Source of the DNA: Bacteroidales bacterium
GTDB lineage: Bacteria; Bacteroidota; Bacteroidia; Bacteroidales; JAADGE01
Length of the DNA stretch: 64,000 bases
NCBI GenBank assembly: GCA_021108035.1
Contig: JAIORQ010000052.1
Location: 1-64,000, forward strand
Direction of reading: 5' to 3'
Translations under genes and position numbers: made by a program
Part shown: positions 452 to 25,665 of the stretch, piece after piece
Layout of the letters: every line of letters starts with the position of its first letter
How positions within the stretch are numbered: the stretch's first letter is position 1
The notes under the pieces: model-generated
What the model was told of the DNA's origin: nothing
The model's database searches: none
What the model saw: the letters and a program-made list of their open reading frames with translations, nothing else

Positions 452-2704
452 TCATTCTTTTAATAAACTCATCAATACCTTTTCATGAGTCATTGGAGCT
501 TTAGAATCAGGTTTAAAGTTTGGGTTAAAAGCCTTAATTGCATTTTGTACGGCAAAGTAACTTCCTGTTCCGTAAATGAAAGGCGGTTCTCCTATGGCTT
601 TTGATTTTAGGATTGCATGTTTATGCCCTTCAGTTTGTAAAGCTTCAATTCTGACAAATTTAGGAGCGGAATTTATATCCGGAACTTTATAGCTTGAAAG
701 TGAGTTAGAAAGAAGGTGTCCTGTTTTGTCGTATCTGATTTCTTCCATTGTTAACCACCCGATACCTTGTATTAAAGCACCCTCAATTTGTCCTTTATCC
801 AATAATAAATTCATACTTTTTCCGAAATCATGAACAATGTCAACAGATTCAATATCATAGGTGCCTCTTATGGTGTCAACTTTTGCAACAGTAATAGCCG
901 TACCGTAAACATGATAGGCAAAAGGATGTCCTTTTTCTTTTGTTTTATCAAACCAAATTTCAGGTGTAGCATAATGCCCCTTTTCTGATAATTTAACGCG
1001 GTTTAAAAAGGCCTTTTCTATAAGCTTTTTCCAAGTAATTTTTGTCTTCTTCTTATTTTGATATACATATTCATTTTTAAGTTGAATATTTTCAATTTTT
1101 GTATTCAACATTTCAGATGCAGTTTGTTTTATCCTTTTTAAAAGGTCTGATGTTGCAATTTCAACAGCTTTACCGTTTAAATCTGCTCCTGAACTTGCAG
1201 CAGTCGGAGAAGTGTTGGCAACTCTTGTTGTATTTGTAGTTTCAAGTTTAATACAGTTAACTGAAACTCCAAAAACATGTGCAGCAACTTGCTTCATTTT
1301 TGTATTTACACCTTGTCCCATTTCAATTGCTCCGGTACTAATTCCTACACTGCCGTCTTGATAGATATGAACCAATGCACGTGCTTGATTCATTACTTTA
1401 TTAGTAAATGAAATTCCGAAACATAAAGGTGTAACAGAAATTCCTTTTTTGAAATTTTTATTTTCTGCATTAAATTGTTTTGCAGTATTAAATTGTTTCT
1501 CAATTGAAAATAATTTATCTGCTGCTTCCCATGAATTAATTGCCTCTGCTTGAATTGCAATTTGACCGTATGGAAATTCATCCCCTTCTTTCAACAAGTT
1601 TGCAAATTGAATTTTATGAGCAGCTACACTTATTTCATTTGCTGCTTGTTGTATAGCTGCTTCAATAGCAAAGATTCCTTGTGGGCCGCCAAAACCTCTG
1701 AATGCAGTATTAGGAGGAGTATTTGTTCTGCAACTGTAAGCTGTTATTTCTGTATTCGGAACAAAGTAACTTCCTGTTCCGTGAAATAGTGTACGTTCCA
1801 TAATTGCCGGAGATAAATCGGCAGAAGCACCTCCGTCCTGAATAAATTCAACTTCGAAAAATTGAATTTTAAGATTTTCTGAAAGACCTATGGTATATTC
1901 AGCAGTATAAGGATGTCGTTTACCGGTCATTCGCAAATCATCATGTCTGCTTAAACTTATTTTTACAGGTTTGTTCAGAATAAATGCAGCAAGTGTTACC
2001 ATTGCGGCCCAAGGTGTTGCTTGGTCTTCTTTACCGCCAAAAGCTCCTCCCAGTCTGTTAACATCAACTTCAATTTTATTCATTGAAATACCCAGAACTT
2101 GCGATGTAATTTTTTGAACAGTTGTAGGTCCTTGTGTTGATGAATATAATGTAATACTACCGTTTTCTTTCGGTACGGCATACGCTCCTTGAGTTTCCAA
2201 GTAAAGATGTTCTTGACCTCCGGTTTTGGAATTACCTTTTATAATATATTTGGATTGTTTTCTTCCTTTTTCAATATTTCCTAATTTAAATATTCTCGGA
2301 GGTATTAAAAAATGTTCTTTTTCTTTTGCAATTTTAGGATCTGTGATAACAGGCAGTTTTTCAAACTCTGTTTCAATCAGCTTTTTTGCATCTCTTGCAA
2401 TACGTTCGGATTCTGCTACAATTAATGCAATGGGTTGCCCGATAAAGTGTACTTCATTTTCTGCAAATAATGGTTCATCTTGAATAATTGCACCAATTTG
2501 ATTTTCGCCCGGTATGTCTTTATAAGTCAGAATTCTTATTACACCCGGTATTGCTTCGGCTTTTTTATAGTTAACTTTTATATTTTTTGCATGAGCAACA
2601 GGTGAATCAAATACTAATCCGTATAAGGTTCCTTGTATTTTCGGTATGTCATCTAAATATATTGATTCTCCTCTTAAATGGCTTTTTGAGTCTGTATTTT
2701 TCAT
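452..2704 (-). CDS. Xanthine dehydrogenase-type molybdenum-binding subunit
   Basis: Large (Moco-binding) subunit of the xanthine oxidase family, which hydroxylates purines or related heterocycles in the cytoplasm. The hammerhead domain covers about residues 10-115 and the molybdopterin-binding domains about 130-750. Visible motifs are GGAFGGKE (219-226), AFRGFGGPQ (334-342), GAIEMGQG (458-465) and GEPP (705-708). Glu226, Arg336 and Glu706 match the substrate-binding Glu, substrate-binding Arg and catalytic Glu of xanthine oxidases, so purine hydroxylation is plausible. The 750-aa length fits a separate Moco subunit. No FAD or [2Fe-2S] subunit is visible; they could lie left of the window. The gene faces away from the cofactor cluster across a 395-bp gap that holds two operator-like palindromes. 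Family assignment is firm; the substrate is inferred. Confidence 0.93.
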   Translation of the reverse strand: MKNTDSKSHLRGESIYLDDIPKIQGTLYGLVFDSPVAHAKNIKVNYKKAEAIPGVIRILTYKDIPGENQIGAIIQDEPLFAENEVHFIGQPIALIVAESERIARDAKKLIETEFEKLPVITDPKIAKEKEHFLIPPRIFKLGNIEKGRKQSKYIIKGNSKTGGQEHLYLETQGAYAVPKENGSITLYSSTQGPTTVQKITSQVLGISMNKIEVDVNRLGGAFGGKEDQATPWAAMVTLAAFILNKPVKISLSRHDDLRMTGKRHPYTAEYTIGLSENLKIQFFEVEFIQDGGASADLSPAIMERTLFHGTGSYFVPNTEITAYSCRTNTPPNTAFRGFGGPQGIFAIEAAIQQAANEISVAAHKIQFANLLKEGDEFPYGQIAIQAEAINSWEAADKLFSIEKQFNTAKQFNAENKNFKKGISVTPLCFGISFTNKVMNQARALVHIYQDGSVGISTGAIEMGQGVNTKMKQVAAHVFGVSVNCIKLETTNTTRVANTSPTAASSGADLNGKAVEIATSDLLKRIKQTASEMLNTKIENIQLKNEYVYQNKKKTKITWKKLIEKAFLNRVKLSEKGHYATPEIWFDKTKEKGHPFAYHVYGTAITVAKVDTIRGTYDIESVDIVHDFGKSMNLLLDKGQIEGALIQGIGWLTMEEIRYDKTGHLLSNSLSSYKVPDINSAPKFVRIEALQTEGHKHAILKSKAIGEPPFIYGTGSYFAVQNAIKAFNPNFKPDSKAPMTHEKVLMSLLKE

Positions 2705-3059: not shown

Positions 3060-3099
3060 TACTGTTATTTTATTATTAACCCTAAAAATGGAGGTAATT

Positions 3100-3411
3100 A
3101 TGCCCGGATTTGACAGAACAGGACCTCAAGGAAGAGGTTCAATGACAGGAAGACGAATGGGGAATTGTAGCGGTAATGCCAATGAAGAGGGTTTTGTTTA
3201 CGGAAGAGGCGGACGCGGATTTGGACGCGGATTTGGACGTGGATTTGGTCGCGGAGCCGGTTTTGGAAACAAATACGGATTTGGCGGAAATCAGCAACAA
3301 TTCTTAACAAACGTTACTGAAAAAACTATGATAGAGAATGATATTAATACTTTAAAGGATCAATTATCTTCTCTTGAAAAACAATTGAATGAATTAAAAC
3401 AAGATGAGTAG
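3100..3411 (+). CDS. DUF5320-type glycine-rich protein
   Basis: Small protein of about 103 residues that opens with MPGFDRTGPQGRGSMTGRR, the signature of DUF5320-like proteins encoded next to NifX and MinD genes in anaerobes. The middle (about residues 25-60) is a Gly/Arg/Phe-rich tract with repeated GRGFGRGFGRG units. The last 30 residues form a predicted coiled coil. I chose ATG 3100 over the in-frame ATG 3088 because the family begins at MPGF and a strong GGAGGT (3090-3095) sits correctly for it; such a Shine-Dalgarno is unusual in this phylum. It is the first gene after the operator promoter and is followed by a terminator, so it probably makes an abundant short transcript. Biochemical role unknown. 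Confidence 0.85.
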   Translation: MPGFDRTGPQGRGSMTGRRMGNCSGNANEEGFVYGRGGRGFGRGFGRGFGRGAGFGNKYGFGGNQQQFLTNVTEKTMIENDINTLKDQLSSLEKQLNELKQDE

Positions 3412-3481: not shown

Positions 3482-3709
3482 ATGGGAATTTTTAAAAGCG
3501 GAAAAGGTACAAGACGAGGAGAAGGGAGAGGTTTAGGAAAAGGCGGCGGACAAGGAAGAAATAAAGGTGGTGCATTCGGAACAGGCGGATACTGTGTTTG
3601 TGCAAAGTGCGGTACAAAAACGGAACATCAAACCGGTATTAAATGTACAACAATTAAATGTCCGGAATGCGGACACGCAATGATAAGAGAAGAATTGTTG
3701 AATAAATAA
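3482..3709 (+). CDS. Small zinc-ribbon protein of NifX/MinD clusters
   Basis: 75-residue basic protein. Residues 1-37 are rich in Gly, Arg and Lys. The C-terminal half has CVCAKCG, then HQTGIKC and CPECGHAMIRE. That gives two CxxC pairs plus a central His/Cys suited to binding zinc or an Fe-S centre. This arrangement is typical of small proteins encoded beside DUF5320, NifX-like and DUF134 genes. It lies between a terminator and the first MinD-type ATPase. Function unknown; a metal- or cluster-carrier role is inferred from context only. Confidence 0.8.
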   Translation: MGIFKSGKGTRRGEGRGLGKGGGQGRNKGGAFGTGGYCVCAKCGTKTEHQTGIKCTTIKCPECGHAMIREELLNK

Positions 3710-3789
3710 ATCATCACCGCAGGGACAGACCTGTGTGTCTGTCTGTGTGTTTAATAATTCATCAATTCAACAATTTTTTAAAAAAACAG

Positions 3790-4659
3790 ATGAAAATAGC
3801 AATTGCCAGCGGTAAAGGCGGAACAGGAAAAACGACTGTAGCAACAAATTTAGTATCTTATTTATCAAAGAATAAAAAAGTTGTATTGGTTGATTTAGAT
3901 GTTGAAGAACCAAATTCAGGTCTTTTTATTCAGGGTGAATTAGTTCATGAAGAAGATAAATTCAAAATGATTCCGGAATGGATTCAAGACACATGTACAC
4001 TTTGTGGTAATTGTCAAAAAGTTTGCAACTTTCATGCAGTTATTCAATTAGGAACACAGATATTAGTTTTTCCTGAATTATGCCATTCATGCTATGCTTG
4101 TTCAGAGCTTTGTCCGACTTCTTCTTTGCCTATGAAGAAAAAGAAAATGGGAGAGTTGAAAGAGTATAAAGATAATAATTTGTCATTTATTGAAAGTCGA
4201 TTAGTAATCGGAGAAGAACAAGCCGTTCCATTGATTCATCAGACATTAAAATATGTTGAAGAGAAGTTTGATAATAATATTATTAAGATATTTGATGCAC
4301 CGCCGGGAACATCATGCCCGGTAATTGAAGCAACCAAAGATGCTGATTTTATTTTGTTAGTTACGGAACCGACACCTTTTGGATTACATGATTTGAAACT
4401 GGCAATTGATACAATGAAGGAATTAAAAAAAGAATTCGGTGTAATAATAAACAGAAACGGGGTAGGAAATAACGATGTTGAAAATTTTTGTATAAATGAA
4501 AATATTCCGATTATTGCAAAAATTCCTGACAGCAGAAAAATTGCAGAATTATATTCTTCCGGTAATTTACTATATGATGAAATTGAAGAAGTTAAAGTTG
4601 AGTTAAAGAAAATTGAAGAGTTTATTTCCGGCTTATTTGTCCGGAAAGTCAGGGTTTGA
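3790..4659 (+). CDS. MinD-family ATPase with inserted ferredoxin domain (first copy)
   Basis: P-loop ATPase of the Mrp/MinD/NifH superfamily with a two-cluster ferredoxin insertion (COG1149 type). The deviant Walker A GKGGTGKT (8-15) and switch region DLDVEEPN are followed by CTLCGNCQKVC and CHSCYACSELCP, each able to hold a [4Fe-4S] cluster, then the switch II motif DAPPGTSCP. Such proteins occur in pairs in ORP-type and NifX clusters and are thought to load or transfer metal clusters using ATP. Start ATG 3790 is chosen because it gives MKIAIASGKGG; the longer frame from 3733 adds 19 unrelated residues. The final residues (FVRKVRV) are encoded by the left arm of an inverted repeat (4648-4727), so the original C-terminus may have been replaced. 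Confidence 0.92.
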   Translation: MKIAIASGKGGTGKTTVATNLVSYLSKNKKVVLVDLDVEEPNSGLFIQGELVHEEDKFKMIPEWIQDTCTLCGNCQKVCNFHAVIQLGTQILVFPELCHSCYACSELCPTSSLPMKKKKMGELKEYKDNNLSFIESRLVIGEEQAVPLIHQTLKYVEEKFDNNIIKIFDAPPGTSCPVIEATKDADFILLVTEPTPFGLHDLKLAIDTMKELKKEFGVIINRNGVGNNDVENFCINENIPIIAKIPDSRKIAELYSSGNLLYDEIEEVKVELKKIEEFISGLFVRKVRV

Positions 4660-4844: not shown

Positions 4845-5717
4845 ATGAAAGAAATAGTAATAATATCCGGAAAAGGCGGAACTGGTAAAACATCAATAAC
4901 AGCAGCATTTGCTGTTCTCGGTAAAGATAAAGTTGTGGTTGCTGATTGTGATGTGGATGCAGCAGATATGCATTTGTTAATGAAACCTGATTTTGGAAAA
5001 AGTGAAGAGTTTTTCAGCGGAGAATTAGCTGTAATTAATCAAGAAGATTGTATTCAATGCGGAAAATGTGCAGAAGTCTGTCGTTTTGACGCAATTCCGT
5101 TTGAGAATAATACATATATTGTTGATGAATTAAGTTGTGAAGGTTGCGGATATTGTGCAAGAGTTTGCCCGACTGAAACTATCATAAATATCAGTCAAAA
5201 TGTAGGGCATTGGTATGTATCAAATATTAAGTCAAAAAGTAAAATGGTACATGCAAAATTAGCAATTGCAGCTGATAATTCCGGGAAGTTAGTTGCACAA
5301 GTCAAGAATGAAGCAAAAAAGATTGCAACTGAAGGTAATTATGATTACATCATTGTTGACGGTTCGCCCGGTGTCGGCTGTCCCGTTGTATCTTCCTTAT
5401 CGGGAGCAAATTATGTTGTGCTTGTTACCGAACCGACAGTTTCCGGGATACATGATTTGAAAAGAGTTTATGAATTGGTGCATAAATTTAATTTAAAAGC
5501 CGGATGCATTATTAATAAACATGACTTGAATTCGGAAATGACTGACAGAATTAAAGAATTCTTAAAAGAAGAAGATATAAATCATTTGGCAGATATTCCT
5601 TACAGTAATGAATTTACAAAAGCAATAACAAACGGAGAAACAATTGTTGAGTATGATAAAGGTGATTTGAAATTAATTATTGAGAATACATGGAATGAAT
5701 TAAAAAAATATTGTTAA
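4845..5717 (+). CDS. MinD-family ATPase with inserted ferredoxin domain (second copy)
   Basis: Paralogue of the preceding ATPase. It has Walker A GKGGTGKT (10-17), switch I DCDVDAADMH, ferredoxin motifs CIQCGKCAEVC and CEGCGYCARVCP, and switch II DGSPGVGCPV. The 290-aa length is normal for the family. Tandem, clearly diverged copies suggest a heterodimer, as proposed for the paired ATPases of the Desulfovibrio orange-protein system. A 185-bp spacer containing the inverted repeat separates it from its partner, and it is followed by a NifX-like gene. Cytoplasmic. The role in metal-cluster assembly is inferred from family and context. Confidence 0.92.
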   Translation: MKEIVIISGKGGTGKTSITAAFAVLGKDKVVVADCDVDAADMHLLMKPDFGKSEEFFSGELAVINQEDCIQCGKCAEVCRFDAIPFENNTYIVDELSCEGCGYCARVCPTETIINISQNVGHWYVSNIKSKSKMVHAKLAIAADNSGKLVAQVKNEAKKIATEGNYDYIIVDGSPGVGCPVVSSLSGANYVVLVTEPTVSGIHDLKRVYELVHKFNLKAGCIINKHDLNSEMTDRIKEFLKEEDINHLADIPYSNEFTKAITNGETIVEYDKGDLKLIIENTWNELKKYC

Positions 5718-5889: not shown

Positions 5890-6228
5890 ATGAAAATTGC
5901 ATTTACAACAAAAGGAACAAGTTGGGATTCTAAAATGGACCCAAGATTCGGCAGAACCGAATATATTTTAGTATTTGATGAAATTTCTGATGAGTTAATT
6001 CATGTGGATAACAGAGATTCTGCAAATGATGCGCACGGTGTGGGGCCAAAAACAGCTCAAAAATTGTTTGAACTAAAAGCCGATGTGCTGATTACCGGTA
6101 ACGGACCCGGAGGAAATGCCGGAACAGTTTTGGAGAAAGCCGGAATGAAGGTATATGTCGGTGCCGGTGAAATGACAGCAAAAGAAGCATATGATGCTTA
6201 TAAAAACAATAGTTTAATAGAAATTTAG
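5890..6228 (+). CDS. NifX/NifB-C-like dinitrogenase cofactor protein
   Basis: 112-residue single-domain protein of the NifX/NafY/NifB C-terminal family (PF02579), which in nitrogen fixers carries FeMo-cofactor precursors. Homologues outside nitrogen fixation, such as orange protein, bind other metal-sulfide clusters. Visible features are DPRFGRTEYILVFD at the N-terminus, HGVGPKTAQKL in the middle and the glycine turn TGNGPGGNAGTVL. No nif genes occur in the window. It ends 2 bases before the next start codon, so the two are probably translated together. The metal cargo is unknown. Confidence 0.9.
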   Translation: MKIAFTTKGTSWDSKMDPRFGRTEYILVFDEISDELIHVDNRDSANDAHGVGPKTAQKLFELKADVLITGNGPGGNAGTVLEKAGMKVYVGAGEMTAKEAYDAYKNNSLIEI

Positions 6229-6230
6229 TA

Positions 6231-7595
6231 ATGAAAAAATACGATATTATAATAATTGGTGCCGGTCCGGCAGGAATTATAACCGGTGTAACAGCTAAAA
6301 CGCAAAATCCTGATAAATCAATTTTATTGTTTAAAGAAGAAGAAAAAGGATTAGTTCCTTGCGGAATACCTTATATTTTCCATAAACTTGGAGGTGTTGA
6401 AAAAAATGTAATGGGACCGAAACCATTAATTGATTTAGGAGGAGAAGTGGTAAACGAGAAGATTGTTGATGTTGATTTGAAAAATAAATCAGTAAAAACA
6501 TTATCAGGTAAAGAGTTTGCATATAGTAAACTGGTTTTTGCAACAGGTTCAAAAGCAGTTATTCCGGATTTTATACCCGGGTTCGACCTAAACAATGTTT
6601 TTTATATTAAAAAAAGCTTTAAATATATAAAACAATTATATGAAGATTTAAAATCTAAAAGGAATATTGTAGTTATCGGAGGAGGTTTTATCGGAGCTGA
6701 AGTTGCAGAACAACTTGCTCTTAATCCCGATAAAAATATTACTTTAATTGAAAGTGAACAATTTTGTTTTTCAAAAGCATTTTCAAAAGAATTAAGTCAG
6801 ATAGCTACTGAAGCTCTTGCTCGAACTGATGTAAATATCAAAACATCCATACAAGCAGAAAAAATAATCGGACATAACGGTGCTGTTTCATCTGTTTTAC
6901 TTAAAAACGGTGAAGAAGTACAGTGTGATGCAGTTATAATGGCAATTGGTTATAAGCCGAATACAAGTTTAGCAAAAAATGTCGGACTGGAATTGAATGA
7001 AACGGGAGCAATTGTTGTTGATAATTATGAACGTACAAAAGAAAAAGATGTATGTGCTGTAGGTGATTGTTCTCAAACTATAGGATTTTTAACAGGACGA
7101 ACGGATTATGTTATGTTGGCATCAACCGCAACAGCGGAAGCTCGTGTATTGGGGCATAATCTTTTTGGTATTGAAATCAGGAAAAAATTTAACGGAACAC
7201 TTGCTGTTTTTTCAACGGAAATTAACGGTATTGCAATGGCTGCTGCCGGTGTTAATGATAGTAATGCTAAAGATGCATGTATTAAATATATTTCTGCAAC
7301 ATTCAGTGATTTTGATACTCATCCCGGAACTTTTGAACATACATCTCAATTATCTGTAAAACTTTTTGCATCATGCCGTGACGGCTCAATAATCGGCGGC
7401 GAGGTATGGGGAGGAAAATCTGCCGGTGAAATAATTAATATTATCGGTTTGGCAATACAAAAAGGAGTAACAGTTTATGAGTTAATATCTTTTCAAATAG
7501 GAACACACCCTTTATTGACCGGTGCTCCTACTAAACCAATTTTAATTAAAGCGGCTGAAAAAATAATAAAACAAATGAAATTCATGAAGAAATAA
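6231..7595 (+). CDS. FAD-dependent pyridine nucleotide-disulfide oxidoreductase (CoADR/Nox type)
   Basis: 454-residue flavoprotein related to coenzyme A-disulfide reductases and NADH oxidases. The FAD-binding GAGPAG is at 10-15, the redox cysteine lies in VPCGIPY (Cys44), the NAD-binding motif VVIGGGFIGAEV is near 150, and the second FAD contact AVGDCSQ is near 280. A dimerisation domain follows. It reduces disulfides, polysulfide or oxygen with NAD(P)H. Starting 2 bases after the NifX-like gene, it may supply electrons or reduced sulfur for cluster assembly; that link is inferred. The single cysteine rather than CxxxxC argues against lipoamide or glutathione reductase. Confidence 0.9.
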   Translation: MKKYDIIIIGAGPAGIITGVTAKTQNPDKSILLFKEEEKGLVPCGIPYIFHKLGGVEKNVMGPKPLIDLGGEVVNEKIVDVDLKNKSVKTLSGKEFAYSKLVFATGSKAVIPDFIPGFDLNNVFYIKKSFKYIKQLYEDLKSKRNIVVIGGGFIGAEVAEQLALNPDKNITLIESEQFCFSKAFSKELSQIATEALARTDVNIKTSIQAEKIIGHNGAVSSVLLKNGEEVQCDAVIMAIGYKPNTSLAKNVGLELNETGAIVVDNYERTKEKDVCAVGDCSQTIGFLTGRTDYVMLASTATAEARVLGHNLFGIEIRKKFNGTLAVFSTEINGIAMAAAGVNDSNAKDACIKYISATFSDFDTHPGTFEHTSQLSVKLFASCRDGSIIGGEVWGGKSAGEIINIIGLAIQKGVTVYELISFQIGTHPLLTGAPTKPILIKAAEKIIKQMKFMKK

Positions 7596-7634: not shown

Positions 7635-7782
7635 AATGCTTCAATGATTAAATGCTTTAATGCTATAATACAACGCAATATGATAAATTATTTTATTTTC
7701 CATTTTAAATAAAACTTATCTTTTAGTAATTAAGTTGTATTTTATTATTCTGAATATTTAAGCATTAAATCATTGAAGCATT
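7635..7782. repeat. Inverted-repeat element between operon segments
   Basis: A 23-bp arm at 7635-7657 (starting AATGCTTCAATGATT) is complementary at 22 of 23 positions to 7760-7782. The 148-bp unit has no reading frame. A shorter AATGCTTCAATG motif also occurs at about 5720. It lies in the 368-bp gap before the ferredoxin-fusion gene; a possible -7 box TAATTTTG (7919-7926) follows. Confidence 0.65.
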
Positions 7783-7963
7783 GGAGCATTTGATAAATTA
7801 TAACAAGTTTTGCAATTTTATTTCAAAATAATTACCAATAGAATAATGGTAGTACAAAAAAAAATATCATTAGTAAAAATCCCAACATGTAGGTATTTAT
7901 ATATATAAATATAATAAGTAATTTTGCTCGAATTATTAATTATTAAAAAATAAATACAAAAAT

Positions 7964-9865
7964 ATGAAACTGAAAAAATATACAGTATCAGAAGAATGCA
8001 TAGGTTGCAGAGCCTGTGTTGAAGTTGCAGAAAATAATTTTGATATGTGCAATCAAAATGTGGCATACATAAAAAAGCAACCTTCAACAAAAGAGGAGGA
8101 AAAAATCAGCGAAGAAGCTATGAATGTTTGTCCGGTTGAGGCAATATCAGTTATAGAAGTTCAAGTTTCCGGTATTGAACCGGTACTTGCAAAGTCGATT
8201 GTCAAAGAAGTTTTGGATGAGCATCCGGATTTAAAACAGATTTTAATTGATTTGTCGCCAAAATTCAAACGCATGCAAAACCCGGTTGTATATAATACTT
8301 TGGCAAAGTTTGCAAGTTTTAAAGATGCTGCAAAAGTTACAGGAGTTTCGATTTGTGAAATTTTACATACCGTTAACAGGTTTTTGGGTGTTGAAGAAAA
8401 GTTGATTAAGAATATGCCGGAGTGTATTTCATCTCAAAAAGATGAAGATATTCTTGAAGGAACAGAACTGAATTGGGAAGAAAGTGCAGAGCGATACATC
8501 TATAATTCAGGCAGTATGGATGAATTATTCGGTAAAATATCTGAACTGAAAGCTCAACAAAATATTGTGATTTTGTCAGTTGAAAAACCTAATGAACTGC
8601 TTAAAACAGTCAAAGGTTTAGGCTTTGAATTTAATTTGGAAAAACATCGTGAATATCGGGTTTCAATTTTCAATCCTGAAAAAGAGGAAATGCAAATTCC
8701 TTGGGAAGAGAGAAAATCTGATTTTGAAGTGATGGATGTCAGAATGATGCAAACTGACCCTTTTGATATCATCATTAAAAAATCATATGAGATTGAAGAA
8801 GACAGTGGTTTTACACTTATTCAAAGGTTTGAACCTACGCCTATGATTAATATGTTGTCTGAAATGGGTTATGAACATATCACAGAGCAAGTAGGGCAGC
8901 AAGAAGTTTGGATATATTTTCATAAAAAAGTAACTGATAAATCCGGAAGTTCAGATGAAGTTTCGGATAAAGTTGATGTTGTTATTCAATCTGCAACACC
9001 TGTTGCTTATCCTGTGATGATGAGATTGTTACAGTCTGAAAAAATCAGAAAGTCAATAAATATTAAAGAACTAAAAGTTTGGGAAGAAACCGAAAAGCAT
9101 CTTGCATGGATTGTAAACGGAAGGGCAGATATAAGTTTCTCGGCATTAATTACTTCTGCCAAATTAAAAGACAGTGATGTTATTATTCCTGCCATGTTTG
9201 TTTGGGATAACTTTGTTATATTAACAAGATACAAAGCAAAGGGTCTAAAAGATATTAAAGGCAAAGAAATTCACACACCTTTATTTGAAGAAGCACCGCC
9301 TGCAAAAATTACTAAATATCTGATTAAAGCAAGCGGATTAAATGTTGATGATTACAAATTTGTTTACGGAACACCTTTCGGAAGACCCGAAAAAATTTAT
9401 GCAGATTTTGTTACAGGTAATGCCGATACTGTTATTTTACGTGAGCCTGAAGCGAGTTATGCCATAAAAATTATGCAAGACAGAGGTGAAGATATATCTG
9501 TTATTTCCTATAATAAAATTTGGAATGAAATTAATCCCGGTTTTGGAAGTTTCCCTAATGCAGGTATTATTTTAAAAGGCGAGTTTGTCAGAAAAAATCC
9601 TGAAATAACCAAAGTTTTGTTAGAAGAATTGAAAAAAGCAATTGATTGGGTAAATAAAAACAGACACGAATCTGCAAAATTATCTTTTGATATGATGAGA
9701 CAGCCTGTTGACAGAGTTGAATTATTTTTAGAAAATGTAAATTTTGAATATGTTGAAGGAGAAAAATTGAATAAAAAAGTAAAAGCATATTTTGATATTC
9801 TTATGGAACAAGGTATTGTTGAAGCTAAAATTGATGATAAATTTTTAAGTATCTTTAAAGTATAG
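7964..9865 (+). CDS. Ferredoxin-DUF1858-DUF2249-solute-binding fusion protein
   Basis: 633-residue protein with an uncommon domain order. Residues 1-62 are a single-cluster ferredoxin (Cys12, Cys15, Cys18 and Cys56-Pro). Residues about 75-135 resemble DUF1858. Residues about 165-325 hold one or two DUF2249-like modules, the second beginning VMDVRMMQTDPFD. Residues about 333-633 have the fold signature of NitT/TauT-type ABC substrate-binding proteins. There is no signal peptide or lipobox, so the binding domain should be cytoplasmic, unlike transporter partners. It may sense or deliver a small ligand to redox-active cluster machinery. The next gene starts 5 bases after its stop codon. Domain calls for the two DUFs are by pattern recognition; the overall function is unknown. 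Confidence 0.85.
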   Translation: MKLKKYTVSEECIGCRACVEVAENNFDMCNQNVAYIKKQPSTKEEEKISEEAMNVCPVEAISVIEVQVSGIEPVLAKSIVKEVLDEHPDLKQILIDLSPKFKRMQNPVVYNTLAKFASFKDAAKVTGVSICEILHTVNRFLGVEEKLIKNMPECISSQKDEDILEGTELNWEESAERYIYNSGSMDELFGKISELKAQQNIVILSVEKPNELLKTVKGLGFEFNLEKHREYRVSIFNPEKEEMQIPWEERKSDFEVMDVRMMQTDPFDIIIKKSYEIEEDSGFTLIQRFEPTPMINMLSEMGYEHITEQVGQQEVWIYFHKKVTDKSGSSDEVSDKVDVVIQSATPVAYPVMMRLLQSEKIRKSINIKELKVWEETEKHLAWIVNGRADISFSALITSAKLKDSDVIIPAMFVWDNFVILTRYKAKGLKDIKGKEIHTPLFEEAPPAKITKYLIKASGLNVDDYKFVYGTPFGRPEKIYADFVTGNADTVILREPEASYAIKIMQDRGEDISVISYNKIWNEINPGFGSFPNAGIILKGEFVRKNPEITKVLLEELKKAIDWVNKNRHESAKLSFDMMRQPVDRVELFLENVNFEYVEGEKLNKKVKAYFDILMEQGIVEAKIDDKFLSIFKV

Positions 9866-9870
9866 ACAAA

Positions 9871-10320
9871 ATGATTAATTATCAACCGATAGCTTATTTC
9901 GAAACTGAATATTCATTGAAATCCAAAGCTCCGAGGCAAGGAATGTTAGCTGATGATGCAAAAGGTGTAATCAAAATTAATGAGGAATATGTACAATGTT
10001 TGGAGTATTTGTCTTCTTTTGAATATATATGGGTAATCTGTCATTTTCATGAATCAAAAGCTTGGAATTATAAAGTAAATCCTCCCGGCAGTAATCATGA
10101 ATTTGGTTTGTTTGCAACCCGAAGTCCGAGAAGGCCGAATCCGATTGGATTATCATTAATAAAACTGGATTCGATTTCAGGTAATAAGCTGTATGTAAGC
10201 AATATAGATGCTTTTGACGGAACGCCTGTTTTAGATATTAAACCGTATTTGCCCTCAATTGATAATGCTGTGAGCATTAAAAATACAGAGGTTGAAGTTT
10301 ATTTGGGGCTTCGTGATTAG
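9871..10320 (+). CDS. trmO: TrmO/TsaA-family methyltransferase-like protein
   Basis: 149-residue YaeB/TsaA (TrmO) family protein. Escherichia coli TrmO N6-methylates t6A37 of tRNA-Thr using S-adenosylmethionine. Hallmarks are FATRSPRRPNPIGLS and DGTPVLDIKPYLP. The protein is shorter than E. coli TrmO (about 235 aa) and lacks its C-terminal domain, as is common in anaerobes. It is separated from the fusion gene by only 5 bases, so it belongs to the cofactor transcript. TsaA-like genes recur next to NifX/MinD genes, which suggests the short form may serve another methylation; that is inference. Confidence 0.85.
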   Translation: MINYQPIAYFETEYSLKSKAPRQGMLADDAKGVIKINEEYVQCLEYLSSFEYIWVICHFHESKAWNYKVNPPGSNHEFGLFATRSPRRPNPIGLSLIKLDSISGNKLYVSNIDAFDGTPVLDIKPYLPSIDNAVSIKNTEVEVYLGLRD

Positions 10321-10410: not shown

Positions 10411-10854
10411 ATGAATTTAAGATTTGCATTTGCCGTTAACAAAAGCGGTGATTTTCAAAAGAAACATTTCGGAGATGCCGATAAATATATTATTTATGAA
10501 CACGACTCAAAAGAATTGATTTTTATTGATGAAATCGAAAATACAAAACGAGATATTGATGAAGAAACAGAACACGGTTCAAAACGAAAAGGGAATGAAA
10601 TAATTGAATATCTTAAAAATTTTGATGTTAAAGTATTAGTTTCAATGCAATTCGGTAAAAATATTAAAATGGTTGATAAGCATTTTATTCCGGTTATAGT
10701 ATCAAATAATAAACTGAATGAGGTAATTGATATTATTGAAAAAAATGTTCATTGGATTAATGATGAAGCCAAAAATAAAGAATTTGACTATATGATATTT
10801 AGGATAAATAACGGAATCTTTAAACAAAAGTTTGAAAAATATAAAAATAACTGA
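10411..10854 (+). CDS. Second NifX-like protein with C-terminal extension
   Basis: 147-residue protein with a NifX-type fold. The beta-strand MNLRFAFAVNKSGDF, the HFGDADKYIIYE segment, and a helix-strand pair ending VLVSMQFGKNI correspond to the family core. About 35 extra residues at the C-terminus are absent from the 112-aa copy at 5890-6228. The glycine-rich loop of the first copy is replaced here, so its cargo or partner probably differs. The upstream gap is 90 bases. The assignment is weaker than for the first copy but fits the context. Confidence 0.75.
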   Translation: MNLRFAFAVNKSGDFQKKHFGDADKYIIYEHDSKELIFIDEIENTKRDIDEETEHGSKRKGNEIIEYLKNFDVKVLVSMQFGKNIKMVDKHFIPVIVSNNKLNEVIDIIEKNVHWINDEAKNKEFDYMIFRINNGIFKQKFEKYKNN

Positions 10855-10908: not shown

Positions 10909-11688
10909 ATGAAACTTTCCGTACTTACAGAGAATACAGCAGGAGCATATTTTTTTGCCGAACACGGTTTATCCTATTTTATTGAATACGATAATAAAAA
11001 GATATTATTTGATGCAGGAGCAAGTGATGTCTTTTTGAAAAATGCAGAAAAACTAAAAATTGATATAAACAGTGCAGATTGCATTGTTTTAAGTCACGGA
11101 CATTGGGACCACGGTAACGGTTTAAAATATTTGAAAGATAAACCCTTAATTTGCCATCCTGATGCTTTTCAAAAAAGATACCGAGAGAACGAAAATAAAA
11201 ATATCGGATTGGAATTGAGCTGTGATGAATTAAATGAAAAGTTTGATATTCGTATAAGTAAAGAACCGGTTTACATTTCATCAAATATTATTTTCCTCGG
11301 AGAAATACCGAGAATAAATGATTTTGAATCACAATCAACATCTTTTGTTAATGAAAAAGGAAATAAAGATTTTGTGCCGGATGATTCTGCTCTTGCAATT
11401 ATTATCGGAGATGAATTAGTCATTGTTTCCGGCTGTGCACATTCCGGAATATGCAATACCACTGAATATGCAAAGAAAGTAACAGGTTTAAAAACTGTAA
11501 AGACTGTTATCGGAGGATTTCATTTAATAAGAAATGACAGGCAAACTAAAGAAACAATAAAATATTTTAAAAGAAATAAAGTTAAACAATTACTTCCCTC
11601 ACATTGCACACAACTTCCGGCACTTGCTGCATTCTATGAGGAATTCAAAATTAATCATGTAAAAACAGGAATGGTTTATAAATTTTAA
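10909..11688 (+). CDS. Metallo-beta-lactamase-fold hydrolase (COG1237 type)
   Basis: 259-residue metal-dependent hydrolase. The ligand motif SHGHWDHGNG places His63, His65, Asp67 and His68; further metal ligands are expected in GCAHSGICN and near the C-terminal HCTQLPAL. It resembles proteins annotated as dihydropterin-ribofuranosyl-aminobenzene phosphate synthase-like (COG1237), which frequently neighbour NifX-type genes in anaerobes. Cytoplasmic, no signal peptide. The substrate cannot be told from sequence; a link to pterin or cofactor chemistry is speculative. Confidence 0.88.
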   Translation: MKLSVLTENTAGAYFFAEHGLSYFIEYDNKKILFDAGASDVFLKNAEKLKIDINSADCIVLSHGHWDHGNGLKYLKDKPLICHPDAFQKRYRENENKNIGLELSCDELNEKFDIRISKEPVYISSNIIFLGEIPRINDFESQSTSFVNEKGNKDFVPDDSALAIIIGDELVIVSGCAHSGICNTTEYAKKVTGLKTVKTVIGGFHLIRNDRQTKETIKYFKRNKVKQLLPSHCTQLPALAAFYEEFKINHVKTGMVYKF

Positions 11689-23574: not shown

Positions 23575-25173
23575 ATGAAGATGAGAAAATTCGTTTTACT
23601 TATAATTGCCTTTATGCTTTTAGGCATTACATTAAAAGCACAAAAAAATATATATTTAGAAAATGTAAGTAATTGTGATAAATTCATTATAAATACATCG
23701 CAATTTAAACCAATGCCACTACCTGTATGGTCAGAACCTAAGAATATTATAAATAGCGAAAATCATATCATAAAATATGAAGTAAAAACTAAAAAAGATA
23801 CAATTTATAATATAAATAAATATGATTTAAAAGATTTTGACGTTTCGCCTTGTAATATTGGTTCTGCTAATTTGGAATATTTTAAAAATGTTTCAAACTT
23901 AAAAAACTTCACTGATTTAACTATTGTTAATGATCCTAGTTTATATCCATATTGTTTAACAGTTAAAATGTATATGACTTTTCCAAATGGAGCCCAATAT
24001 GTCGGTTCAGGAACTTTAATTCATTCAAAATTTGTAATTACTGCTGGACATTGTGTTTACTCACATAGTGACGGTGGTTGGGCTACGTCTATAACTGTAA
24101 TTCCAGGTTATAATAACGGTAATATTCCATATGGTGTTTCTAACTCTACTTATTTGTATTCGTGGACAGGCTGGACGCAATCTGGTGGCACAGGCTGGGA
24201 ATGGGATATGGCTTACATACAATTAGATAGAAATATTGGTGGCGTGACTGGTTGGACTGGCTTTGGATACAATGATAATAATAGTTTTTTTACTTCAAAT
24301 ACATTTAACAATCCAGGTTATCCTGCTGCTTCACCTTATAATGGTGAATATATGTATTATTGGTATGGGTATTATGATAATGTATATGATCACATACTTT
24401 ATTTTAATAAACAATCTTATGGTGGACAAAGTGGTAGTGGTGCAATTGATAATAATCTTATTACTTATGCCGAATTATCACATGGCAATGAAACGCAAAC
24501 TGGTTGTGTGCGAATAAATTCCGAAAAATATAATGACATATTAAATAACATAAACTCTACCATTCCATCTAGTATTGATTTAATGCCATTAAATATTCAT
24601 GTCCAGAATAATGTAGAGGCAGGTGAAACATTATCATTTTTTACTTTTTTAATTCATAATTATTCACAAGCAACTTTCAATGACAATTTAAATTACGATG
24701 TTTTTTTATATTCTGAAAATATGGATTATATATTTCTTGGTAATTTTGATTATAATTTATATGTTACATCTCTTCAAACAGCTATGCTTTCAGCAAATCC
24801 AATTATTCCTTCTGAAACACCAACAGGAAATTACAGTATCGGAGTAACTATTAATTTTTTCGATGCAAATATCAGTAATAACACAACTTATTTTTGGGAT
24901 AATGCACCAATAACAATTACTAACACTACAGTAATTTCTGATTTATCAGAAACAAACAACCTCATTTATCCTAATCCTGCAAACAGTATATTGTATTTTA
25001 ACAATTTAAGTAATAATGCAACAATCTCAATTTACGATATTAGCGGAAAATTATTGATAAACTCAAAAGTTGCTAACAACCAGGTAAATATTAATAAATT
25101 AGCAAACGGAATTTATATTGTAAAAATTAATGATAGTTATATAATTAGAACAACTAAATTTGTAAAACAATAA
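23575..25173 (+). CDS. Secreted V8/trypsin-like serine protease with T9SS sorting domain
   Basis: 532 residues. Signal peptide about 1-22 (ending LKAQ). A propeptide-like region of about 100 residues precedes an S1B-type protease domain. The catalytic triad is visible as VITAGHCV (His159), WEWDMAYIQL (Asp211) and GGQSGSGAI (Ser286). Glutamyl-endopeptidase (V8) specificity is plausible from overall similarity but not proven. A CARDB-like beta domain (about 335-440) leads to a type A T9SS domain (LIYPNPANSILYF ... TKFVKQ). The base composition is more AT-rich than in the cofactor cluster, consistent with an accessory gene. Extracellular or surface-attached. Confidence 0.92.
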   Translation: MKMRKFVLLIIAFMLLGITLKAQKNIYLENVSNCDKFIINTSQFKPMPLPVWSEPKNIINSENHIIKYEVKTKKDTIYNINKYDLKDFDVSPCNIGSANLEYFKNVSNLKNFTDLTIVNDPSLYPYCLTVKMYMTFPNGAQYVGSGTLIHSKFVITAGHCVYSHSDGGWATSITVIPGYNNGNIPYGVSNSTYLYSWTGWTQSGGTGWEWDMAYIQLDRNIGGVTGWTGFGYNDNNSFFTSNTFNNPGYPAASPYNGEYMYYWYGYYDNVYDHILYFNKQSYGGQSGSGAIDNNLITYAELSHGNETQTGCVRINSEKYNDILNNINSTIPSSIDLMPLNIHVQNNVEAGETLSFFTFLIHNYSQATFNDNLNYDVFLYSENMDYIFLGNFDYNLYVTSLQTAMLSANPIIPSETPTGNYSIGVTINFFDANISNNTTYFWDNAPITITNTTVISDLSETNNLIYPNPANSILYFNNLSNNATISIYDISGKLLINSKVANNQVNINKLANGIYIVKINDSYIIRTTKFVKQ

Positions 25174-25339: not shown

Positions 25340-25665
25340 TTTAATACGATACAGAGGGGAACTACGCAAAGACAGGTGTTGGTGTGCCACGATGCTGTGG
25401 AAATCCAGCAGGTGAAAATCCTGTCAGGGCAATTGACTGTTCACCCTGAAGAAAACGAACAGATAACTCTGTGAGGAGGATGCTGAAGCTTCGTTCTTTC
25501 AAATAATCAAGCCGTAATGCGAAAGCGTGAACCCGTAGTGGTCCGACTGACGGAGAAAACTTCACGTACGGTTTGATGAAGGGGGTACTGACAGTCTTAA
25601 CTATTTTATTATCTTTGGGTAATATTTTAGAATAGGCTATCAGGCTCTACTCTACGCGGTAATTA
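25340..25665 (+). mobile_element. Group II intron remnant without reverse transcriptase
   Basis: The sequence CAGCAGGTGAAAATCCTGTC (25406-25425) resembles the 5' domain I region of bacterial group II introns. CACGTACGGTTTGATGAAGG (25563-25582) resembles the 3' half of domain V with the start of domain VI. The two are about 150 bp apart, so the intron-encoded protein and most internal domains are missing. The likely 5' edge is GTGTGCC at 25382. The 3' edge is unresolved, between about 25605 and 25665 (CTCTACTCTAC). GC content is well above the surroundings. It interrupts no visible gene. Confidence 0.65.

Follow-up and report, generated by a model that had tools for sequence, protein, structure and literature searches.

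The gene at 7964-9865 and its domains

The first 64,000 nucleotides of contig JAIORQ010000052.1 from a Bacteroidales bacterium (assembly GCA_021108035.1), hereafter the window, contain a gene in which a ferredoxin and a solute-binding protein (SBP) fold of the NitT/TauT transporter type are joined in one polypeptide. The gene belongs to a real, widespread protein family that is, as far as the literature was searched, undescribed: no published description of this domain architecture was found there. Positions 7964-9865 (+) form one open reading frame (ORF) of 633 codons without interruption, and the order ferredoxin, DUF1858, DUF2249, SBP in a single polypeptide, as given in the original prediction made from the DNA letters, is borne out by Pfam, the structure model and the relatives. 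The gene and its parts are:

7964-9865, +, gene of 633 amino acids (aa), ferredoxin, DUF1858, two TusA-like modules and SBP (ORF, Pfam, AlphaFold2, PDB comparison, relatives)
7991-8152, +, single [4Fe-4S] ferredoxin domain, residues 10-63, ligands C12, C15, C18 and C56 (Pfam Fer4_13)
8195-8437, +, DUF1858 helical domain, residues 78-158, with invariant C131, H135 and C154 (Pfam, AlphaFold2 model)
8492-8671, +, first TusA/DUF2249-like alpha-beta domain, residues 177-236 (models, relative L110)
8726-8926, +, second TusA/DUF2249-like domain, residues 255-321 (Pfam DUF2249 at 257-320, PDB comparison)
8969-9862, +, two-lobed SBP domain, residues 336-633 (AlphaFold2, PDB comparison, conservation)

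A scan of genome contigs found 94 relatives, and 80 loci (L032-L111, 41-75% identical) were kept; a full-length homologue with 59% identity occurs in another genome. The alignment comprises 69 of these loci and the window protein, leaving out L064, where a stop interrupts the match, L103 and L104, whose frames are broken, and eight copies of partial length. The same architecture, with or without the ferredoxin part, extends over the 70 aligned rows with 74 invariant columns, and since full-length relatives share it, the frame is not a misassembly of two genes. In Marinitoga lauensis (L104, 9977-11853) the family gene is split into frames of 252 and 373 aa, by a sequencing error or a real break.

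Pfam matches the ferredoxin part to Fer4_13 over residues 10-63 (E 5.8e-13), and its cysteines are kept in 64 (C12, C15) or 65 (C18, C56) of the 70 rows, the remaining rows being gaps. DUF1858 is matched at residues 78-133 (E 2e-12), with C131, H135 and C154 present in every row; no DUF1858 structure is among the best PDB matches listed for residues 72-332, and a profile search matched 2fi0 (a conserved domain protein) over residues 73-137 with E 0.001. Both TusA-like domains are modelled as beta-alpha-beta-alpha-beta-beta, with a pLDDT of 88.5 when residues 72-332 are modelled alone. The second resembles TsuB/YeeD (Z 9.0) and TusA (Z 7.8) in the PDB comparison, and its Pfam match to DUF2249 (residues 257-320, E 5.6e-6, 26.5 bits) lies under the gathering score of 29.5. 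The first reaches Z values of at most 7.0, with Alba, IF3-C and SepF-like families, and is recognised as DUF2249 only in the relative L110, where Pfam finds two DUF2249 stretches. Foldseek with residues 72-332 returned no match at E <0.001. TusA sulfurtransferases have their catalytic Cys in a CPxP motif; this Cys is absent here, the DUF2249-type stretch reading DVRMMQTDPFD.

The C-terminal part is matched by NMT1 in Pfam (residues 416-566, E 1.6e-4, 22.1 bits, just over the gathering score of 20.5) and weakly, far under the cut-off, by SsuA_fam in NCBIfam (residues 426-624). The structure model and the relatives back these weak DUF2249, NMT1 and SsuA_fam matches. The AlphaFold2 model of the whole protein, built from the 70-row alignment, has a mean pLDDT of 84.5 and a pTM of 0.58, so that the relative placement of the domains is unsure; from residue 341 onwards the 10-residue blocks score 79-96, with 19 of 30 blocks at 90 or above. 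Compared with the PDB, modelled residues 336-633 match 3hn0 with Z 26.1 (root-mean-square deviation 2.5, 268 residues aligned), PqqT with 25.7, SsuA with 23.6 and Thi5 (4esx) with 22.5. Cytoplasmic-type matches are the regulatory domains of CmpC (9uai, Z 21.5) and NrtC (8wm7, 20.1); further ones are MqnD (20.5), DszB (18.4) and MqnA (17.6), and the top Foldseek match is Thi5 (4h6d, E 5.9e-14). In the model the C-terminal domain adopts the two-lobed SBP fold, as had been proposed. It is the most conserved part of the family, with 47-83% identity to the window versus 34-70% for residues 72-332 (the row sets overlap but differ), and its segments QSATP, WEETEKH, WDNF, PLF, APP, PFGRP, LREPE and PNAG are invariant or nearly so.

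With the periplasmic SBPs of the NitT/TauT type (SsuA, TauA, NrtA, 3hn0) the window protein shares the two-lobed fold and the weak SsuA_fam/NMT1 sequence match; unlike them, it has no visible export signal, is fused to a ferredoxin and three other domains, and has no adjoining ABC permease or ATPase. Indeed, such partners occur neither among the scanned window neighbours nor among the annotated recurrent neighbour clusters of the relatives; one ABC_membrane protein was found among 96 other scanned neighbours of relatives. In our reading the family protein is not a transporter part. Thi5, MqnA/MqnD, DszB and the CmpC/NrtC regulatory domains all act in the cytosol, and with these precedents the NitT/TauT-type fold in the cytoplasm is not new as such. 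Thi5 (the HMP synthase), MqnA/MqnD and DszB are enzymes built on the same fold, and we know of no ferredoxin in any of them. The CCCFC of Thi5 is a Cys-rich metal motif; the stretch CLGCCCFC aligns, in a weak alignment, to a Cys-free segment of the family profile. CmpC/NrtC regulatory domains belong to the ATPase chain of their transporters and are alike in the SBP fold only, whereas the window protein carries a ferredoxin and, by Pfam, no ATPase domain. The earlier interpretation is supported in part: the SBP fold, the probable cytoplasmic place, the single polypeptide and a family undescribed in the literature searched agree with it, whereas ligand sensing or delivery would be a further step. 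Neither of the two refuting outcomes named with it that were examined, a missing two-lobed fold and a joining of two genes by misassembly, was found.

DUF2249, which we take to be COG4309, has likewise been met in other settings. DUF2249/COG4309 proteins of nitric oxide (NO) regulons and Thermus DrpA have a TusA-like domain tied to norB or nitrate respiration (PMC1274295, PMC6282519, in the parts cited); they differ from the window protein in being mostly small and lacking SBP or ferredoxin. In the same parts, COG4309 is proposed to be relevant to NO reductase (PMC1274295) and the DUF2249/DUF1858 proteins DrpA and DrpB are proposed to be regulators (PMC6282519), while bsl7085, of the DUF2249/DUF1858 kind, is placed in the NnrR regulon in the part cited of PMC6710368.

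Relatives, cell location and genomic neighbourhoods

The ORF of the window begins directly at the ferredoxin domain, and a hydropathy scan, which is crude and not a dedicated signal-peptide predictor, found no hydrophobic segment in the protein. Five relatives (L033, L036, L039, L040 and L093) allow its orientation to be judged, as in them the family protein is the C-terminal half of a fusion of 1143-1164 aa, the first half of which is PepSY_TM by Pfam in L093, the one scanned. Each of the five has four transmembrane (TM) segments in the hydropathy scan, and the stretch after the second segment is positive in all (4-7 Lys/Arg vs 1 before it), which places both ends of the fusion inside. Behind the last segment the charges point the same way in L033, L040 and L093 and are uninformative in L036 and L039, where the segment was placed too early. 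From the missing signal and this topology, the family protein is probably cytoplasmic, in line with the earlier statement that it has no export signal.

Six further loci carry a separate PepSY_TM gene (one of them, L062, Pfam-scanned). The motifs NHR, [IV]HSG and WHN occur in 11/11 PepSY parts and KKYH in 8/11, and in the hydropathy scan these His motifs lie at the membrane edges, like the haem-binding His of FoxB in the part cited of PMC13038864. The same source counts ferrisiderophore reductases among the known PepSY_TM proteins and states that the electron donor of FoxB is unknown. The family is thus linked to FoxB-type PepSY_TM cytochromes by fusion in five relatives and vicinity in six more, and differs in its ferredoxin-SBP part, which is not described in the part cited. 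The window copy lacks the PepSY part with its four TM helices and paired haem His.

Among the 80 record titles, 50 name Bacteroidota, and the others Marinitoga, Spirochaetaceae, Eubacteriales, Desulfurellales and more, although titles of metagenome-assembled genomes (MAGs) may be mis-binned; the record names of many carriers refer to sediments, vents and sulfidic caves. Within the order of the window the gene is present in 27/295 genomes, and it was not found in the three genomes listed for the window genus besides G000. A search with the SBP part only for free-standing kin in 296 Bacteroidota genomes returned only the two full proteins at 1e-6.

Neighbourhoods were counted by gene clustering over 81 loci (the 80 relatives and the window), with one member per gene cluster Pfam-scanned. 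Quinol NO reductase (qNOR) occurs in 10 loci, Rrf2 in 12 and a hemerythrin-PAS protein in 9, with at least one of these in 19. All 10 qNORs carry the motif HLWVEL, and the single one that was scanned matches NorB_cytochrome_c-like and COX1. As for the hemerythrin-PAS proteins, one resembling YtfE is induced by NO in D. desulfuricans (PMC5701242, in the part cited). Two loci in records titled Bacteroidales, L094 and L097 (7845-9476), combine Rrf2, a 182-aa partner and a COX1 (heme-copper-oxidase) homologue with DLIADG replacing HLWVEL, so that Asp takes the place of the metal-ligand His and also of the active-site Glu found in the qNOR motif. We call this reductase gNOR-like because Asp is the active-site residue given for gNOR (PMC8756737, Table A4, in the part cited). 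An octaheme cytochrome of the tetrathionate-reductase family occurs in L067 (scanned) and, by gene cluster, in L086. The recurrent partners of known role across the family are nitrogen-oxide reductases and their regulators, a pattern that the window alone does not reveal.

Some members are split. Each of the four members without a ferredoxin domain that were found in the order (L122-L125) has a same-strand gene for Hcp, the hybrid cluster protein, which is the directly following gene in L122, L123 and L125; in L124 a 62-aa opposite ORF and a gene with Fe-S motifs (by eye) lie between core and Hcp. A 62-aa Fer4_13 ferredoxin gene precedes the core in L123-L125, with a Crp-type gene just before it on the opposite strand and, in L123 (which shares its contig with L110), an additional opposite ORF in between; the contig of L122 is cut before the gene, and the genes of L125 were Pfam-scanned (Hcp 772 bits). 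L111 has Crp, ferredoxin and core, with no Hcp among the genes read, and in L107 the core directly follows a gene of the flavoprotein cluster that resembles thioredoxin reductase and is itself preceded by a 113-aa gene, thioredoxin-like by eye. The ferredoxin-less members L107-L111, L122, L124 and L125 form one deep branch with support of 100 (by a quick method, with long branches). With a ferredoxin gene adjoining the core in one branch and a ferredoxin domain joined to the core in the other, there are good grounds to think that both work together.

The best matches in a plasmid collection are free-standing SBP kin with about 22-28% identity and, by eye, signal-like N-termini. NnrS and ABC genes stand beside the SBP in 4/4 Campylobacterota records read, of seven listed, and a Paraclostridium record joins the SBP with ABC genes, two cupins, hemerythrin, ferredoxin and Hcp, so that a nitrogen-oxide neighbour (NnrS or Hcp) is found in 5/7 plasmid records read; the Azospirillum and Pseudomonas records have ABC permeases, with no NnrS or Hcp in the stretch read. 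These Campylobacterota and Paraclostridium clusters resemble the family in the Trp, EP and PxAG motifs and in the nitrogen-oxide neighbourhood, and differ in their signal-peptide-like N-termini and ABC partners. The SBP branch itself may have been linked to nitrogen oxides in its history, as judged from a few records of one collection. The SBP-ABC-NnrS clusters of the Campylobacterota plasmids (L120, L148, L149 and L150), two of which have a TonB-dependent receptor in the stretch read, are, we think, an NO-linked importer.

Around the window gene the neighbours are of another kind:

3088-3411, +, DUF5320 protein of the orange-protein-like operon (Pfam; same cluster in 8/81 loci)
3482-3709, +, small Cys-motif protein of 75 aa, zinc-ribbon-like by eye (script gene call; same cluster in 8/81 loci)
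3733-4659, +, MinD/Mrp-type ATPase with inserted ferredoxin motifs, Orp3/Orp4-like (Pfam, NCBIfam)
4845-5717, +, second MinD/Mrp-type ATPase with ferredoxin insert, Orp3/Orp4-like (Pfam, NCBIfam)
5890-6228, +, Nitro_FeMo-Co (Di-Nase) protein, weak match to the C-terminal part of MrpORP (Pfam, NCBIfam)
6231-7595, +, pyridine-nucleotide flavoprotein of the CoA-disulfide reductase group (Pfam, NCBIfam), a possible electron source
9871-10320, +, TrmO-family tRNA methyltransferase, 5 bp downstream of the family gene and probably co-transcribed with it (Pfam, NCBIfam)
10411-10854, +, second Nitro_FeMo-Co/NifX-like protein (Pfam, NCBIfam)
10909-11688, +, metallo-beta-lactamase-fold protein (Pfam)

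The window thus has the Orp3/Orp4-type MinD ATPases with ferredoxin inserts and the Di-Nase proteins that are described for orange-protein operons, with Orp3/Orp4/Orp8/Orp9 in Desulfovibrio as the precedent (PMC6345978, in the part cited). Such ATPases occur in 14/81 loci and a Nitro_FeMo-Co protein in 13/81, and in the DNA examined this context and the nitrogen-oxide one never overlap. In 13 of the 14 ATPase loci the gene lies less than 100 bp after a same-strand gene, the window with its gap of 368 bp being the exception. The earlier placing of the gene inside a cofactor operon therefore stands for the window (two MinD/Mrp ATPases, two Nitro_FeMo-Co proteins) and does not extend across the family: this operon is mainly the habit of one clade, to which the window belongs. 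L049, titled Thermoplasmatales archaeon, has a 67% identical copy in an orange-protein-like operon, by mis-binning or transfer.

Within the 368-bp gap lies an inverted repeat with 15-base arms (window 7635-7649 and 7768-7782), which may be a terminator or a repeat element. Just upstream of the operon, window 452-2704 (-) encodes a molybdopterin large subunit of the xanthine-dehydrogenase/aldehyde-oxidase type. Elsewhere, at window 25406-25522 (+), Rfam matches group II intron D1-D4-4 with 52.1 bits (gathering 49), 233 bp after the ORF 23575-25173, whose sole Pfam match is a secretion-sorting tail.

In a tree of 82 rows (quick method, long-branch warnings), one 20-row set, whose support of 85 is not starred, holds 13 of the 15 orange-protein rows, window included. 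On starred branches at least 8 changes are needed to explain the NO label and 5 to explain the orange-protein one. Across the order, qNOR is found over the cut-off in 12/27 genomes with the gene vs 50/268 without it (Fisher p 0.0047, ignoring kinship). The NO link of the window copy is by family, not by its own neighbours.

Palindromes upstream of the family genes

A de novo search for dyads was made over 67 upstream regions, with 60 shuffled sets as control. ATACC-N8-GGTAT was found in 7/67 regions and GTAAC-N4-GTTAC in 4/67, each with 0.0 on average in the shuffled sets; the best dyad of any kind per shuffled set reached a mean of 4.5 and a top of 6, so that by count only ATACC-N8-GGTAT stands out. 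The second dyad has its weight because it equals, letter for letter, the HcpR2 consensus GTAACnnnnGTTAC (PMC1274295, in the part cited). Exact GTAACnnnnGTTAC occurs in 6 copies in 971,668 bp of loci, whereas each of 12 shuffled sets had 0-1 (mean 0.5). Three of the copies precede the gene (L096, L100 and L104), two precede the ferredoxin-core unit (L110 and L111), and the sixth is at another place in L111. The five family transcription units preceded by it include those of Marinitoga and Eubacteriales. Exact sites are also present in L124 and L125 and in the Paraclostridium record of a free-standing SBP. As a yardstick, an exact copy also stands in front of the window genome's own hcp (L153), 81-95 bp upstream of the matched stretch.

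The first dyad is represented in the window itself:

7878-7897, no strand, 20-bp palindrome AATCCCAACATGTAGGTATT, one mismatch to AATACC-N8-GGTATT (dyad search; common to relatives)

Its centre lies 77 bp 5' of the ATG of the window gene. With at most one mismatch, AATACC-N8-GGTATT occurs in 10/67 upstream regions vs 0.05 expected from Markov shuffles. The 81 loci hold 19 such box sites, 13 of them before the gene or the PepSY gene, where all six exact ones are found; 12 of the 13 are 59-192 bp before the script-called start, and the exception (L032, 11 bp) has a called start that looks too long. In the window genome there are 24 box sites vs 8 for the reversed control. Among the 15 inspected, 4 precede genes (feoAB, a TonB receptor, mntP and the family gene) and 11 are inside ORFs; the four exact copies lie before feoAB, mntP and the TonB receptor and inside one ORF. 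The feoAB site departs from the refined pattern AATACCNANNNNTNGGTATT, which has 1-2 sites in each of 5 genomes and none in the reversed control, the four genomes besides the window's having been chosen because their family gene has a box. The other site in G250 precedes a tandem DUF2249 protein and then a COX1-like membrane protein (L169, 1580-3018); the second sites in G446 and G246 have nothing telling beside them, and G396 has one site only.

A reading of AATACC-N8-GGTATT as an Rrf2 operator was set aside, as Rrf2 genes show, by eye, a different palindrome near their own starts; the dyad count upstream of Rrf2 genes is weak, with at most 3/13 sharing one dyad. No DtxR-type repressor (PF01325) was found in the window genome.

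Proposed role and alternatives

We read the family protein as a redox protein of the cytosol that depends on ferredoxin and takes part, in anaerobes, in the nitrosative-stress and iron/Fe-S response, its SBP fold closing on a small molecule, and give this reading a probability of about 0.5. The computation shows the domain order, the SBP fold, a predicted cytoplasmic side, strongly conserved SBP motifs, a linkage to nitrogen-oxide reductases in several branches and HcpR2 sites ahead of several members; the path of the electrons and their use on a ligand are inferred from these. That the family is cytosolic, bears a ferredoxin and is linked to the nitrogen-oxide response across its range seems likely to us. 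A ferredoxin-dependent reductase or repair protein acting on a small molecule bound in the cleft is a tentative assignment. Still more tentative is the fuller picture in which the family is a novel kind of cytosolic enzyme that is driven by ferredoxin, uses the ABC-binding-protein fold and belongs to the core response of anaerobes to NO; in some lineages it would be wired directly to a PepSY_TM haem cytochrome and so be the missing cytosolic electron partner of that membrane family. In the reading favoured here, the [4Fe-4S] cluster would take up electrons from a soluble donor, for example the flavoprotein encoded nearby, or exchange electrons with the haems of the PepSY_TM anchor where that is present. 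They could then pass via the Cys/His of DUF1858 (C131, H135, C154) and the TusA-like modules to the ligand of the SBP cleft, which would close on its small molecule inside the cell, and there serve to reduce a nitrogen-oxide-derived or metal-bound small molecule or to drive a repair. In the clade of the window the gene would have moved into the orange-protein-like operon, so that it may serve the upkeep of Fe-S or metal clusters during the same stress.

Several observations weigh against the proposed role in the nitrogen-oxide response. Nearly all loci are MAG contigs, and 46/81, many on short contigs, show no Rrf2/qNOR/hemerythrin, orange-protein or PepSY neighbours; among the 96 scanned of the 127 listed neighbours of those 46 loci, the only kinds met more than twice are flavoproteins (4) and histidine-specific methyltransferases (3). 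In the tree, rows on short contigs were counted as unlabelled, which inflates the changes, and some of the 8 may be missing data; the co-occurrence with qNOR is uncorrected for kinship. The count of the HcpR2 dyad (4) is not above that of the best shuffled dyads. As for the window, its genome has Hcp and no qNOR over the cut-off, no HcpR2 site precedes its gene (the best has 3 mismatches), and the box, which also precedes feoAB, mntP and the TonB receptor, connects the gene with metal homeostasis no less than with NO.

Alternatively, the protein could be a ligand sensor with an SBP domain that binds cytosolic nitrate, nitrite, bicarbonate or a related anion and switches a partner in the manner of the CmpC/NrtC regulatory domains, while the ferredoxin reports the redox state. 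The structural matches to the CmpC/NrtC regulatory domains (Z 21.5 and 20.1) speak for it, as does the proposed regulatory role or NO-regulon membership of DUF2249/DUF1858 proteins elsewhere (DrpA/DrpB, PMC6282519; bsl7085, PMC6710368; in the parts cited). However, the five members scanned whole (window, L093, L095, L098 and L110) have no output domain, be it kinase, DNA-binding, cyclase or transporter, and the PepSY_TM anchor and the separate ferredoxin genes favour electron flow over signalling, and we consider a sensor improbable. A similarly low probability falls to a metallocofactor factor of the orange-protein complex, which would provide the MinD/Mrp ATPases and Di-Nase proteins with a ligand or with electrons when Fe-S or Mo-Cu clusters are assembled. 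Such a role would fit the Orp3/4-like ATPases (14/81 loci), the Di-Nase protein (13/81), the close spacing in 13/14 of these loci and the Desulfovibrio Orp3/Orp4/Orp8/Orp9 precedent (PMC6345978, in the part cited), but 67/81 loci are without such an ATPase in the DNA examined, 13/15 of these rows are confined to one 20-row part of the tree, and the window is the sole one of the 14 with a large gap, with the palindrome inside it.

The PepSY_TM association raises a further possibility, namely that the protein supplies the cytosolic electrons for the reduction of iron or copper chelates, its SBP domain binding a chelator or haem-like ligand. Of the 81 loci, 5 have PepSY_TM as a fusion partner and 6 others have it as a separate gene, with three His motifs in 11/11 PepSY parts and the fourth in 8/11; the palindrome also stands before feoAB, mntP and the TonB receptor, and both the ferrisiderophore reductases among PepSY_TM proteins and the unknown FoxB donor (PMC13038864, in the part cited) agree with it. 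Yet 70/81 loci are without PepSY in the DNA examined, an extra cytosolic SBP domain would be superfluous for periplasmic metal reduction, and Hcp and qNOR are left unexplained; a metal reductase thus appears unlikely, too. A recent chance fusion or misassembly without function has practically no probability left, as misassembly and chance fusion are ruled out by the 59% identical full-length homologue and the 94 relatives, and one architecture persists over the 70 aligned rows.

If the cytosolic redox protein proposed here is real, an SBP fold has been recruited, together with an iron-sulfur electron carrier in one polypeptide, to redox work inside the cell when anaerobes respond to nitrogen oxides. 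DUF1858 and DUF2249, tied to NO biology in print with no mechanism found there, would gain a concrete multidomain partner, and a testable electron partner would be offered for the PepSY_TM cytochromes, given that the donor of FoxB is stated to be unknown (PMC13038864, in the part cited). The strong conservation of the SBP part makes identification of the ligand directly approachable. Taken so, the family suggests a new element in how oxygen-avoiding microbes withstand nitric oxide.

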